From Opitutia bacterium (GTDB taxonomy: Bacteria > Verrucomicrobiota > Verrucomicrobiia > Opitutales > Opitutaceae): a DNA stretch of 64,000 bases. The stretch is from NCBI GenBank assembly GCA_016217545.1, contig JACRHT010000012.1, positions 124,001 to 188,000 on the forward strand, in the 5' to 3' direction. Below are positions 19,951 to 63,385 of the stretch, one piece after another. Position 1 is the stretch's first letter. Each line of letters opens with the position of its first letter. The translations under genes were made by a program, and so were the position numbers. Below the pieces are notes generated by a model. It saw only the letters and a program-made list of their open reading frames with translations, ran no database searches and was not told where the DNA came from.

Positions 19951-20034
19951 GTACCCCAATAGGTTACCCGGTCCCTCGGACGCACGACCGAGTCGGGAGA
20001 GCACGCCGGCGCCCTCGGTAACCTATTAGGTTAC
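19951..20034. repeat. Paired palindrome element, intergenic copy (pair A)
   Basis: Two copies of the GTAACCTATTAGGTTAC element lie 67 nt apart (start to start) between convergent genes. The copy at 20018-20034 is a perfect match. The copy at 19951-19967, GTACCCCAATAGGTTAC, has three changes in its left arm and centre. The 50 nt between them contain an inner CTCGG...CCGAG stem. On the minus strand the perfect copy has AATAGG and the other CTATTGGGG, the same AAT-then-TATT order seen in pair C. Unlike the pairs at 61658 and 62647, the offset is not a multiple of three and the copies are not coding. The sequence to either side, 19852-19950 and 20035-20087, shows no gene. Confidence 0.9.
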
Positions 20035-59683: not shown

Positions 59684-59742
59684 GGCGCGATCGCGCGCCC
59701 GGCGTTATGCTCTCGGGAGTAAATCCCGGACAAACTCACGCC

Positions 59743-61326
59743 ATGAACCGCAAACCCCTCGATTTCCCGCGCTCCTCGATCGGCTATACTGCCGCCTCCA
59801 CGATGAAAAACCCACGCATCACCGTCCTCGCGACGGCCGGCCTCGCCTTGGCCGCCGCGCTCTGCACCGCCTCGCTCGCCCACGCCAACGAAGGCCCCAC
59901 CGACGCCAAGGGCCCCGTCATCCTCCCGTCCGAAGTGCAGGCCATGCCGGTCGAGCAGGCGATTCTCACCGCGCCGCCGCACGTGCCGCCGGCCATCACG
60001 CGCAAATACGCGGCGCGCGTCGTCGTGCAGCTCGAGGTGCGCGAAGTCGTCGGCCGTCTCGCCGACGGCGTCGAATACACTTTCTGGACCTACGGCGGCA
60101 GCGTCCCCGGCTCGTTCATCCGCATCCGCGAAGGCGACGTCGTGGAATTCCACCTGAACAACCACCCGTCGTCGAAGCTCCCGCACAACATCGATCTCCA
60201 CGCCGTCACCGGCCCGGGCGGCGGCGCGGCATCAACGTTCACCGCGCCGGGTCACAGTTCGCAGTTCACCTTCAAGGCTCTCAACCCGGGCCTCTACGTC
60301 TATCACTGCGCCACCGCGCCCGTCCCGATGCACATCGGCAACGGCATGTATGGCCTCATCCTCGTCGAGCCGAAGGACGGCCTGCCGCCTGTCGACAAGG
60401 AATACTACGTGATGCAAGGCGAGTTCTACACCACCGGCAAATACGGCGAGGAAGGTCTGCAATCCTTCGACATGCAGAAGGCCATCGACGAACGCCCGCC
60501 CTACGTCGTGTTCAACGGCGCCGTCGGCTCGCTCACGGGCGACAAGGCCATCACCGCCAACGTCGGCGAGCACGTCCGCATCTACTTCGGCGTCGGCGGC
60601 CCGAACGTCACGTCATCCTTCCACATCATCGGCGAAATCTTCGACAAGGTTTATCCGGAAGCCGGCCTCAGCCTGCCCAACGCCAACGTCCAGACCACGC
60701 TCGTCCCCTCCGGCGGCGCGTGCGCCGTGGAGTTCAAGGTCGATGTCCCCGGCACGTTCGTCCTCGTCGACCACTCGCTCACGCGCGCATTCAACAAGGG
60801 CGCGCTCGGCATGCTCAAGGTCACCGGCCCCGAGGACCGCGTCACTTACTCCGGCAAGGAAATCGACGCCGTCTACTTCGGCGCCGCCGTCGATTCCGAT
60901 GCCTCAAAGCGCGCCGCCGATCTAAAAGCCAAGATCGCCGCCGAGATCGCGAACAATCCCGCCATCGCCGGCTTCACCAAGGAAGCGCAGATCGAAAAAG
61001 GAAAACAGGTTTACATGGGTCTCTGCTTCGCCTGCCACCAGCCCGACGGCAAGGGCATGCCCGCGGTCTTCCCGCCGCTCGCCCAGTCCGACTACATGCT
61101 CGCCGACCGCGACCGCGCCGTCCGCGTCGTGCTGAAGGGCCTCACCGGTCCCGTCACCGTCAACGGCCAGTCGATCAACAGCGCCATGCCGCCGCAGGAA
61201 GCCGCGCTCACCGACGCGCAGGTCGCGGACGTCCTCACCTACGTCTTCAACTCGTGGGGCAACAAGGGCGACGCCTTCAAAGCCGACCACGTGAAAGCCA
61301 TCCGCAACGAGGCCCGCAGCAACTAA
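59743..61326 (+). CDS. nirK: Copper nitrite reductase fused to cytochrome c
   Basis: A protein of about 527 residues that reduces nitrite to nitric oxide in the periplasm. Two cupredoxin domains carry the ligands: H148, D151 and H153 in [12 protein letters not shown]188-C189 in [12 protein letters not shown] with H197 and M202; and later His in [10 protein letters not shown] and VLVDHSL. A C-terminal class I cytochrome c domain has [11 protein letters not shown] and a distal Met near the end, so electrons can pass inside one chain. The signal peptide hydrophobic core is at about 27-47; an ATG at 59803 is a further possible start. It precedes the FGE-domain and Sco1-like genes. Confidence 0.95.
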
Positions 61327-61369: not shown

Positions 61370-62548
61370 GTGGTCGCCGCTGTCCCAGCGGCGACAAACT
61401 CCCGCTGCCACCTCGATCCGCGCCGTCCGAAAAATCTTCCCGCCTTGTCCACGACTCCCGTCACCGTCCGCCGCACTCTTCCTGCCCCGGCCCGCACCGG
61501 CGCAGGCGCGGCGTGTTGCGGCCCGGACACGGCGGCTAATTTGTCCCCGGTTAGCGTCAGGGTATCAGTAAACTGCACTCCGTCCGCGGCGCCTCGTGCG
61601 CTGCTCGCACTCCACGCGAGCGCCGCGGCCGGATCTTCCCCGAAGTCCGTCCTGACCAAGTGTAACCTATTAGGTTACACTTCCCCCACACTCCCCTCTC
61701 TCGGGCAGCGAGTTTGTAACCTATTAGGTTACACTTGGCGCTCGCTCGCTGCGGCGGCACTCGCCGTTCCGCTCTCGACCGCGCTCGGCGCTGCCTCGCC
61801 AAGCGATCCGAGGACTAGCTCCCTCAACCCGGCCGCGGCGTCCACAGCCGTCGTCATCCCCGCCGGCAGCTATGTTCCGCTCCAGCGTTCCGTGAAGGAC
61901 CTCGCGAGCGTGCCCGTCGCCGCGTTCCGCTTGGACGTCACGCCGGTCACCAACGCCGAGTTTCTCGCCTTCGTCCGCGCCAACCCCAAGTGGCAACGCT
62001 CGCGCGTCAGCCCGCTCTTCGCCGACGCCTCGTATCTCGAAACGTGGGCCGGCGACCTCGAGCCCGGCCCGCGCGCACCCGCCAACGCGCCGGTCGTGCG
62101 CGTCTCGTGGTTCGCCGCGCGCGCTTACGCTGCGTGGGCCGGCAAGCGCCTGCCCACCACCGCCGAGTGGGAGCTCGCCGCCAGCGCCGGCTACACGCGC
62201 GCCGACGGCAAGAACGACGAGCAGCTCAACCGCGACCTCTACGCCTGGCTCGCGCGCCCCGTGCCGGCCGTGCTCCCCGACGCCGCGACCGCGCGCCCGA
62301 ATTTCCACGGCGTGCGCGGTCTGCACGGCCTCGTCTGGGAATGGGTCAGCGATTTCAACACCGCGATGGTCACCGGCGAGTCGCGCGCCGACTCCGGCCT
62401 CGAACGCGACCTCTTCTGCGGTGCCGGTTCGGTCGGCGCCAAGGACACGACCGACTACGCCGCGTTCATGCGGCAAGCGCTCCGCTCCTCTCTCCGCGCC
62501 AACAACACCACGTCCTCCCTCGGCTTCCGCTGCGCGCAGGACCTCTGA
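61370..62548 (+). CDS. FGE-sulfatase (SUMF1-like) domain protein, start uncertain
   Basis: The SUMF1-like domain occupies the C-terminal 230 residues: IPAGSYVPLQR, DVTPVTNAEFLAFVRANP, APVVRVSWFAARAYAAWAGKRLPTTAEWELA, LHGLVWEWVSDF and SSLGFRCAQDL. Members in nirK clusters are exported and of unknown role; the Cys pair of true formylglycine-generating enzymes is not evident. A signal-type hydrophobic core (RSLAAAALAVPLSTALGAA) precedes the domain, and pair B of the palindrome lies just before it. The listed left end is only the first GTG-type codon of the open frame and lies inside a hairpin; no ATG exists, and TTG codons at 61445 and 61541 are alternatives. The true start is unresolved. Confidence 0.72.
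   Translation: MVAAVPAATNSRCHLDPRRPKNLPALSTTPVTVRRTLPAPARTGAGAACCGPDTAANLSPVSVRVSVNCTPSAAPRALLALHASAAAGSSPKSVLTKCNLLGYTSPTLPSLGQRVCNLLGYTWRSLAAAALAVPLSTALGAASPSDPRTSSLNPAAASTAVVIPAGSYVPLQRSVKDLASVPVAAFRLDVTPVTNAEFLAFVRANPKWQRSRVSPLFADASYLETWAGDLEPGPRAPANAPVVRVSWFAARAYAAWAGKRLPTTAEWELAASAGYTRADGKNDEQLNRDLYAWLARPVPAVLPDAATARPNFHGVRGLHGLVWEWVSDFNTAMVTGESRADSGLERDLFCGAGSVGAKDTTDYAAFMRQALRSSLRANNTTSSLGFRCAQDL
61374..61394. repeat. Hairpin repeat, TCGCCGCTG/CAGCGGCGA family
   Basis: Second copy of the stem seen at 13201, with a 3-nt loop (TCC). Position after nirK suits a weak terminator or processing site. Confidence 0.75.
61658..61733. repeat. Paired palindrome element inside coding sequence (pair B)
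   Basis: Two exact GTAACCTATTAGGTTAC copies at 61662-61678 and 61716-61732, 54 nt apart start to start. The first lies in a perfect 25-bp palindrome (61658-61682), the second in a 19-bp one. In the frame of the FGE-domain protein each reads C-N-L-L-G-Y-T; 18 codons separate them, so the frame is kept. They lie directly before the hydrophobic core of the export signal. The minus strand over this region is also open and reads C-N-L-I-G-Y twice. Confidence 0.93.
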
Positions 62549-62596
62549 ACGATCTTTCTCTTTCTTCTTTCTCCCAATCTTTCTCCGCGCCACGCC

Positions 62597-63385
62597 ATGA
62601 ACACCACGTCCTTCCCCACCCCAACGTCTTCCCGCCCCCCCGCACCGAGTAACCCAATAGGTTACTCATCCCGCTCGCTCTCACTCTGGGGCGGTAACCT
62701 ATTAGGTTACTCCGTCCGTTTGGCCGCGGTCGGGGTTGCGCTTTCCGCCGCGGTCGCGGTTAGCGCCGGCTCTTGCTGCAAGCCCGAGCCGAAACCGGAA
62801 CCCAAGGACGCGTGCTGCGCCGCGGCCGAAAAGCCCGCCTCCGCGAAGAAGGCCGATTGCTGCAAGCCCGCGGAAGCCGCCGACACCACCGCTGCACCCT
62901 TCACGCGCACCTCGCTCTACCAAGCCGACGGCTCCTTCACCGACGATTCGGGGAAATCCTTCCGCCTCGCCTCCCTGCGCGGTCGTCCCGTCGTGGTGAA
63001 CCTGTTCTTCGCCACCTGCGGCTACGCCTGCCCGCTCGCCGTCACCGACCTGCTCGCCGTGCAAGCGCGCCTCTCGCCCACGCAGCGCAAGGACACCGTG
63101 TTCGTCCTCGTGTCGTTCGATCTCCAGCGCGACACCGTCGAGGCGCTCGCGCAATACCGCGCCGCGCGCCAGCTCGACGACAACTGGATCCTCCTCCGCG
63201 GCGACGACGCGTCCGTCCGCGAACTCGCCGCTCTCCTCGGCGTGAAATACAAGCAGGAAGCCGACGGCTCCTTCGCCCACTCGAACCTCTTCACGATCCT
63301 CAACCGCGAAGGCGAAGTCGTCCACCAGCGCATCGGCCTGCAAAGCGGCATCGACGGCGCCGTCGCCGCGCTCACCGCCCTCTAA
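62597..63385 (+). CDS. Sco1/SenC-like copper chaperone with cysteine-rich linker
   Basis: A 262-residue exported thioredoxin-fold protein. After about 40 N-terminal residues that include pair C of the palindrome, there is a hydrophobic core (LAAVGVALSAAVAVSAGS) and then a linker with three CC pairs (SCCKPEPK, DACCAAAE, ADCCKPAEA) that could bind copper or anchor a lipid. The Sco domain has C141-G-Y-A-C145 in FFATCGYACPLA and the distal His228 in GSFAHSN. It may deliver copper to NirK or cytochrome oxidase. A TTG at 62720 after the palindromes is an alternative start but would leave a signal with no basic residues. Confidence 0.88.
   Translation: MNTTSFPTPTSSRPPAPSNPIGYSSRSLSLWGGNLLGYSVRLAAVGVALSAAVAVSAGSCCKPEPKPEPKDACCAAAEKPASAKKADCCKPAEAADTTAAPFTRTSLYQADGSFTDDSGKSFRLASLRGRPVVVNLFFATCGYACPLAVTDLLAVQARLSPTQRKDTVFVLVSFDLQRDTVEALAQYRAARQLDDNWILLRGDDASVRELAALLGVKYKQEADGSFAHSNLFTILNREGEVVHQRIGLQSGIDGAVAALTAL
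62647..62712. repeat. Paired palindrome element inside coding sequence (pair C)
   Basis: Copies at 62649-62665 (GTAACCCAATAGGTTAC, two changes) and 62694-62710 (exact), 45 nt apart. In the frame of the Sco1-like protein they read S-N-P-I-G-Y-S and G-N-L-L-G-Y-S, separated by SRSLSLWG. They lie between the ATG at 62597 and the hydrophobic core of the signal sequence, as pair B does in the upstream gene. Confidence 0.93.

Follow-up and report, generated by a model that had tools for sequence, protein, structure and literature searches.

Within a 64,000-nt stretch of the genome of an Opitutia bacterium (assembly GCA_016217545.1, contig JACRHT010000012.1, positions 124,001 to 188,000 of the forward strand; hereafter the window), a 17-nt palindrome, GTAACCTATTAGGTTAC, occurs in pairs at the start of two adjacent genes of a denitrification cluster, and a first-pass annotation of the sequence had taken it for an in-frame insertion with a preference for signal peptides. 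The palindromes are real, but they are part of a large system of palindromes linked to a helix-turn-helix (HTH)-like protein, not a signal-peptide element. They are one family of a repeat of Opitutaceae that resembles the repetitive extragenic palindromes (REPs) and their paired form (REPINs), mostly outside genes and single or paired, with the denitrification genes merely providing two of the places where this GTAACC family has inserted. The probable explanation, in our judgment, is that the dyads are recognition sites of HTH-like proteins of ~118 aa, in a REP/REPIN-like family with no linked Y1 transposase. Every family seems to have a small DNA-binding protein of its own, in which the putative reading residues would vary in step with the repeat's letters.

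Linkage of the palindromes to a small protein gene

Sequence comparison finds the protein gene linked to the palindromes, the two co-occurring across genomes, and particular residues of the protein associated with particular bases of the repeat. An open reading frame (ORF) of 117–126 codons lies between palindrome copies in six species, which had been located via the palindromes; in genomes G006 and G001 the TAA of GTAACC is the stop codon of this ORF. A profile built from the six found the partner gene in 130 of the 252 Opitutaceae genomes, and a first palindrome pattern, GTNNNCTAATAGNNNAC, was present in 113 of the 252. Among palindrome-rich genomes (at least five matches) 64 of 66 carry the partner gene (P = 1.7e–20), the exceptions being G030 and G245. 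The thresholds for richness (at least five matches for the first pattern, at least ten for the second pattern described below) were of our own choosing, and the genome counts were compiled by hand.

Linkage was scored at 90 partner-gene loci, a non-random sample because 30 were returned by the search and the other 60 were picked by hand, favoring genomes with known palindromes. A dyad lay within 160 nt of the gene in 79 of these loci (72 upstream, 67 downstream, 60 on both sides), and where both sides had one the 6-bp half-site agreed across the gene in 59 of 60. Without the six founding species the linkage stood at 73 of 84 loci. As controls, a dyad was found in 71 of 2000 random window placements and in 40 of 180 windows of 160 nt at the edges of the loci; the edge rate exceeds that of the random placements, and therefore copies either cluster near these genes or belong to genomes dense in copies.

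The half-sites are diverse (GTAACC, GTCACC, GTAACCA, GTCACCA, TTAACCA, GTCACG, GTAACG, TTCACG, GTCACT, GTAACT, GTCAAC, GTCATC, GTAGTT, ATGCCG and others). Genomes whose partner gene is flanked by GTCACG or GTAACG (the GTMACG type) were predicted to carry that type, and all nine do, copies beside the gene being counted: 99 sites in G121, 41 in G059, 28 in G114, 21 in G143, 18 in G074, 12 in G149 and 11 in G193, while the counts for G009 (4) and G010 (3) say little for that reason. Used as the second pattern, GTMACG had at least one site in 88 of the 252 genomes, its reversed control had none in any of the 252, and all 34 genomes with at least ten sites carry the gene. Two genomes deserve separate mention. 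In G121 (8.4 Mb) there are 99 copies of GTMACGTAWTACGTKAC and five partner-protein matches, and loci L366 and L391 are flanked by GTAACG/GTCACG types. In the window's own genome, at locus L305 (G000:C12:255501-255848), the dyad upstream of the partner gene is of the GTCACC type and those downstream are of the GTAACC type; the helix of the encoded protein reads HNF, as in the GTCACC-flanked protein of G001 (L343).

Profile searches with the partner protein returned weak HTH matches only (YdaS, HTH_3, HigA, repressors). An AlphaFold model has helices at 51–64, 69–77, 81–89 and 97–111, of which the C-terminal ones are consistent with an HTH domain. A sequence search of solved structures gave a single match, LpoP (E = 0.15), taken as chance, and searches of viral contigs (38 pattern matches, 0 confirmed), plasmids and phages did not find the protein.

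The 79 loci with a half-site, reduced to 75 at 90% identity and with conflicting half-site positions set to N, were used to relate residues to bases. Arginine or lysine at residue 81 accompanies G at base 1 in 68 of 68 loci, and proline at 81 accompanies another base in 7 of 7; arginine or lysine reading an outer G agrees with HTH chemistry. R93 is present in 50 of the 51 loci with C at base 6 (the exception is L385) and in none of the 19 others, H or D at 85 in 27 of the 33 loci with C at base 3 and 5 of the 38 with A, and D, E, N or Q at 86 in 61 of the 64 loci with A4C5 and 2 of the 11 others. A distance-matched scan of the 118 columns ranked residue 81 first for base 1, 86 for base 5 and 93 for base 6. 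Closest disjoint pairs of loci differing at base 3, mostly distant pairs, went with residue 85 in 22 cases and against it in none, 11 being neutral, and a tree built without these columns had 4, 7 and 7 base changes at positions 1, 3 and 5, respectively. The associations are strong yet not ancestry-free, because independent contrasts are few. A pairing of protein and dyad seems very likely, and we read as new the small HTH-like protein gene beside palindrome copies, as the apparent cognate binder of a REP-like family that has no linked Y1 transposase.

Repeat family, its sites and their occupants

At the level of sequence, the palindromes constitute a repeat family with filled and empty sites, copies read in frame and, at some sites, a turnover of occupants. 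An exact match to the 17-mer (W at the centre) occurs 38 times in the window's own genome, and a match with at most two mismatches 57 times, against 0 for a reversed control pattern; when the window was shuffled 100 times with dinucleotides preserved, no match at up to three mismatches appeared. Exact copies were present in 8 of the 57 genomes of a search of relatives (own genome counted). A scan for pairs returned 41 stretches, all from Opitutus, Candidatus Didemnitutus, Rariglobus, Opitutaceae, Opitutia or Verrucomicrobia, the complete genome of IMCC26134 among them. The first-pass annotation had proposed such a search of the genome and its relatives; many copies and in-frame readthrough inside genes came out of it, and a signal-peptide bias did not.

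The loci analysed contain 265 non-redundant palindromes, with 98 pairs and 76 further singles. Pairs prefer spacings of 54 nt (25 of the 98) and 66 nt (21), followed by 45 and 67 (8 each). Spacer letters are weakly conserved (mean information of 0.35 bits over the 24 pairs spaced at 54 nt and of 0.27 bits over the 21 spaced at 66 nt, versus 0.09 for shuffles), with a TTTCACTC-like core frequent; palindromic ends paired at preferred distances around variable spacers are the architecture of REPINs. The stems covary (AAC/GTT in 177 of the 265, CAC/GTG in 32, AGT/ACT in 32, others in 24), and the loop CTAATAG/CTATTAG is retained in 241. Hybrid palindromes, with one arm from each family (AAC/GTG 6, CAC/GTT 2 of the 265; several in the own genome), were also seen and may point to exchange at the dyad centre.

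Complementarity continues beyond the 17-mer, with z of 6.6–9.3 at the first two outer positions for the members of 94 pairs and 4.9–9.5 at the first four for 76 singles, but the members of a pair also complement each other above shuffles at the first two outer positions, and because of this the stem test does not separate hairpin, dyad and long-stem readings. Stems that are complementary and extend past the 17-mer are what would be expected of RNA hairpins in the message, serving as terminators or in mRNA stability, with the association to a protein secondary. We hold that explanation to be very improbable: the commonest stem switch, from A-T to C-G at base 3, bypasses a G-U pair (some other mismatches are of the G-U type), copies lie in coding sequence, the residue-base association suits a double-stranded dyad, and Rfam had no match in the window at gathering scores. 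The DNA-level role that the first-pass annotation had considered gains support from the linked HTH-like protein.

Ordinary REP/REPIN elements, mobilised by the Y1 transposases known as REP-associated tyrosine transposases (RAYTs), share with the palindromes an inverted pair at fixed distance around a variable spacer (as far as the available text of PMC3116915 and PMC3733652 goes). Moreover, Y1 matches occur in 12 of the 13 genomes of the genus, and Opitutus terrae is described, in the part of PMC3733652 available, as having abundant GTAG REPs and as holding the most intragenic ones. Nevertheless, none of 30 Y1 loci (L079–L108; 18 from palindrome-bearing genomes, although just 3 of the own genome's 10 Y1 matches are represented) had a palindrome of the GTAACC or GTCACC types, the only ones sought, in flanks of up to ~1.5 kb. 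Neither was there any enrichment of a REP-type tag: GTRG was seen at 28 of the 265 palindromes versus 27 in control windows, and a GTAG/GTRG or CGTC tag within 14 nt of the stem at 51 of 265 versus 71 of 265 control windows. Finally, three Y1-bearing genomes, G003, G004 and G005 (8, 8 and 14 matches), have no exact copies. With no palindrome near the 30 Y1 loci and no tag, we rejected a RAYT origin, which we consider quite improbable.

Filled and empty sites could be compared at several genes. The SCO1/SenC gene of the window (gene 2 below) has orthologues without the GTAACC palindrome in six species of the genus, and clean empty sites were found in an RlmD-like gene in G003, G004, G009 and G011, where G000 (the own genome), G001, G002, G006 and G007 have palindromes; a comparison with orthologues lacking the element, as the first-pass annotation had suggested, thus bore out insertion. 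In G008 and G010 the RlmD-like gene holds non-palindromic inserts resembling decayed copies. By eye no target-site duplication, as would mark a MITE of a DDE transposon, was evident on comparing filled with empty sites, at which the insert borders are blurred.

Shared sites, as their sequences read, can hold occupants differing in stem, spacer and family. At the SCO1/SenC site the sibling G007 has the same GTAACC pair, G006 has a GTAGTC pair in its place, also in frame, and a single GTAGTC copy lies there in G069 (locus L132), which belongs to a different genus. At three syntenic sites (the first element of L018, L024 and L179) a 66- or 67-nt pair in G000 corresponds to a 54-nt pair in G007, the matched flanks being 84–99% identical (for the right side of L018 only 92 nt were matched). 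An ATPase-like gene has a single hairpin whose stem is GTAACC in G000 and G007, of a GTCAT type in G004 and TTCATGCCGTAATACGGCATGAA in G001, the stems varying yet remaining largely complementary, and no clear palindrome in G008 and others; the G001 stem is of the type that flanks another partner-protein gene of that genome (L342). At L023/L190 there is no turnover, the hairpin region being identical. One further occupant was noted at locus L112 of G005, a genome without exact GTAACC copies, where the N-terminal region of SCO1/SenC holds TGTAGGAGCCTGCTTGCAGGC in frame, which looks like a GTAG-tagged REP; this region may tolerate palindromic inserts of different classes.

Such sites bear on whether the repeats spread selfishly or are sites of a nucleoid-organising or regulatory HTH protein, a host network under selection in which letters would co-change with the protein. 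Flank matching found many sites common to different species and some to different genera (at least those listed), the stems of shared sites change symmetrically and by lineage, and the neighbourhood of the partner gene is conserved in G000, G007, G006 and G002, all of which a host network would explain. It sits less well with copies inside enzymes and others missing at clean empty sites, with one site holding different families (site E, where G001 has the ATGCCG type), with the non-palindromic, decayed-looking inserts (G008, G010, site D), or with the lack of any partner-gene match in 122 of the 252 genomes. We consider a host network unlikely, and between the two we favor the selfish, REP-like reading with good confidence.

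Copies read within genes, and the pairs of the window

Placement of 140 elements from six genomes relied on a home-made gene caller that is weak at N-termini, where copies were therefore sampled non-exhaustively (the window's own two pairs were not placed inside their genes). It placed 25 of the 140 within an ORF, in one frame on both sides, and did not assign the other 115 to any. Twenty-two of the 25 are open throughout in the frame of their host, although they fall into 11 sites when grouped by flank matches and so are not 22 independent cases. Spacing was divisible by three in all 15 in-ORF pairs versus 34 of 65 other pairs (P = 0.0003); for this test L050, L231 and L244, the three in-ORF elements that are not open, were counted as outside genes, which moves one pair, and the excess over one third among pairs outside genes is due to the 54 and 66 types. 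For 10 of the 140 elements the coding frames differ on the two sides, six of these lying between opposite-strand genes; among the remaining four, with genes on the same strand, there was no clear frame-breaking insert, L030 being ambiguous. In L030 (1500-1583) and L248 (1549-1632), from G000 and G007, a 66-nt pair is readable after an ATG that overlaps the stop codon of the previous gene, and is perhaps a further N-terminal insertion.

In-frame insertion in the manner of Rickettsia palindromic elements, as the first-pass annotation had it, is thus upheld by the open elements and by the spacings of the in-ORF pairs. Its signal-peptide preference is not: most elements are outside ORFs, and the in-ORF hosts inspected are enzymes (by ORF inspection and no profile searches, an epimerase/3-beta-HSD-like protein, an RlmD-like RNA methyltransferase, and copper-ATPase-like, methyltransferase-like and helicase-like proteins). 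A signal-peptide-specific element was rejected, since genome-wide copies do not fit it.

Both pairs that drew attention to the family lie downstream of a plus-strand gene (59707..61326) with multicopper-oxidase and cytochrome c domains, NirK-like by inspection. Gene 1 (61370..62548, plus strand) encodes a protein with a Sulfatase-modifying-factor (FGE) domain and has its pair before or within the N-terminus, at 61662..61678 (GTAACC-TATTA-GGTTAC, with an outer stem AAGT/ACTT) and 61716..61732, 54 nt from the left copy. Gene 2 (62597..63385, plus strand), encoding an SCO1/SenC protein, has its pair in frame, after the start codon and ahead of the hydrophobic core, at 62649..62665 and, 45 nt from there, at 62694..62710; strand is not assigned to the palindromes. 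The spacings are those first reported, and three copies match the 17-mer exactly (61662-61678, 61716-61732 and 62694-62710), but the fourth, at 62649-62665, reads GTAACCCAATAGGTTAC, with two mismatches.

The frames too are as first described, CNLLGY and CNLLGY in gene 1 and SNPIGY and GNLLGY in gene 2, but the 17-mer contains a stop (TAA or TAG) in two of three frames on either strand, so that the N-x-x-G-Y frame is forced in any open copy and a preference for it carries no evidential weight. A position just before the hydrophobic core of a signal sequence holds for gene 2, the start of gene 1 being insecure. By inspection there is no in-frame ATG, GTG or TTG in gene 1 between the GTG at 61370 and the domain, and because a usual start codon was not found the reading of this gene, including translation of its palindromes, is unproven. 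In this region (window 61370-61760) a possible GTG start of the sibling G007 corresponds to GTA in the own genome; the protein start may be unusual or the gene damaged. The ATG of gene 2 at 62597 is plausible, and more secure than the start of gene 1 because orthologues without the palindrome open directly with a short signal sequence.

A third pair of the window (19951..20034, strand not assigned), overlooked in the first-pass annotation, is intergenic and flanked by convergent genes. Its copies start 67 nt apart, at 19951 and 20018, the left one degenerate (GTACCCCAATAGGTTAC) and the right one exact. It was not found at the syntenic place in the sibling G007, where the intergenic region differs.

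Proposed mechanism and comparison with known systems

We propose that the HTH-like protein binds the double-stranded dyad as a dimer, and that, with a palindrome often just upstream of the start codon, it would repress its own gene. The gene typically adjoins, and often sits between, copies of its own palindrome, and persistence of the family or spread of its copies may depend on the protein. Palindrome-rich genomes hold tens of dispersed copies of one or several families, single or paired, with preferred pair distances of 45, 54 and 66 nt in the genus studied, and intragenic copies may persist because one frame reads open, yielding tolerated linkers.

Several observations weigh against this proposal. 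The partner protein has no catalytic domain that could explain spread. Its membership of the HTH fold is weakly marked: the best E values were 0.0033 in Pfam, 0.11 in NCBIfam and 0.0021 in PHROGs, below curated cut-offs where these exist (no XRE/lambda-repressor-like profile match exceeded its curated cut-off, the best Pfam score being 17.6 bits against 30), the AlphaFold model, built from four sequences, is of medium confidence (predicted local distance difference test 70, predicted template-modelling score 0.49), and the best Foldseek match had E = 1.6, several XRE-type proteins being listed, all at E > 1. As to linkage, 11 of the 90 loci lack a nearby dyad of the expected form, L305 carries one dyad type upstream and another downstream, the first pattern is scarce in 66 of the genomes with the gene (the second being plentiful in some of these), and eight genomes with 3 to 6 GTMACG sites have no partner-gene match. 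To these are added the three in-ORF elements that are not open (by inspection they lie outside genes) and the complementarity between pair members.

The residue-base association has its own share of such points. The residue groupings H/D85 and DENQ86 were set after the data had been seen (for H alone, P = 1.6e–5). In the distance-matched scan residue 95 ranked first for base 4, with 86 second, and residue 85 only eighth for base 3; in a plain mutual-information scan 81 and 93 led for bases 1 and 6, with other columns leading for bases 3, 4 and 5, and several bases had high-ranking columns that lie outside the helix. Shared ancestry inflates the associations. On supported branches of the tree there is only 1 independent pair for position 1, with 3 for position 3 and 1 for position 5, and these agree in direction or show no mean difference; no sign test is significant, 0.05 being unreachable with these numbers.

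Taken in its full extent, as a selfish REP-like repeat class with a tiny HTH partner, a readable code at residues 81, 85, 86 and 93, many families, in-frame copies and replacement of one family by another, the proposal is in our view evenly balanced. If true, it would give short palindromes a second, Y1-independent route by which to colonise bacterial genomes and donate protein linkers. It would also supply dozens of naturally occurring protein/half-site pairs for reading and testing a recognition code, and families that seem to replace one another at fixed sites would make REP-like spread directly testable. A literature search, judged mainly by title and with subscription journals mostly outside it, found no description of REP-like repeats partnered by a small HTH protein, and no match to the letters of the 17-mer.

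Among known systems, XRE-type regulators (phage repressor, HigA, YdaS, C proteins) are likewise small HTH-like proteins whose genes have an upstream dyad, and the partner protein's weak profile and fold matches are to them. XRE-type regulators of these kinds are autoregulated. Unlike them, the present system has tens of dispersed copies, some intragenic, and in 60 of 90 loci the gene has a dyad on either side. Rickettsia palindromic elements are alike as palindromic inserts in frame within unrelated genes (PMC10969869, in the part available), but the present unit is smaller, with 17-nt dyads and a hypervariable spacer, is mainly intergenic and has a linked protein gene. The GTAG REPs of Opitutus terrae share the family Opitutaceae and have many intragenic copies and dimers, but their stems are tagged, according to the portion of PMC3733652 at hand, a comparison made by description.

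Closest in form are the REP/REPIN repeats and RAYTs of Pseudomonas and E. coli. Two units around a short spacer, which the first-pass annotation had listed together with a signal-peptide preference as lacking a precedent known to it, are a known arrangement there, REPINs being similar in what is accessible of PMC3116915. That text and the corresponding portion of PMC3733652 describe short palindromes as singlets and as inverted doublets at fixed distance, a length-constrained spacer, and several families per genome, each beside its own protein gene, much as in the Opitutaceae. The present system differs from them in a partner that is a small HTH-like protein and not Y1, in having no GTAG/CGTC tag, and in its near-perfect 17-nt dyads.

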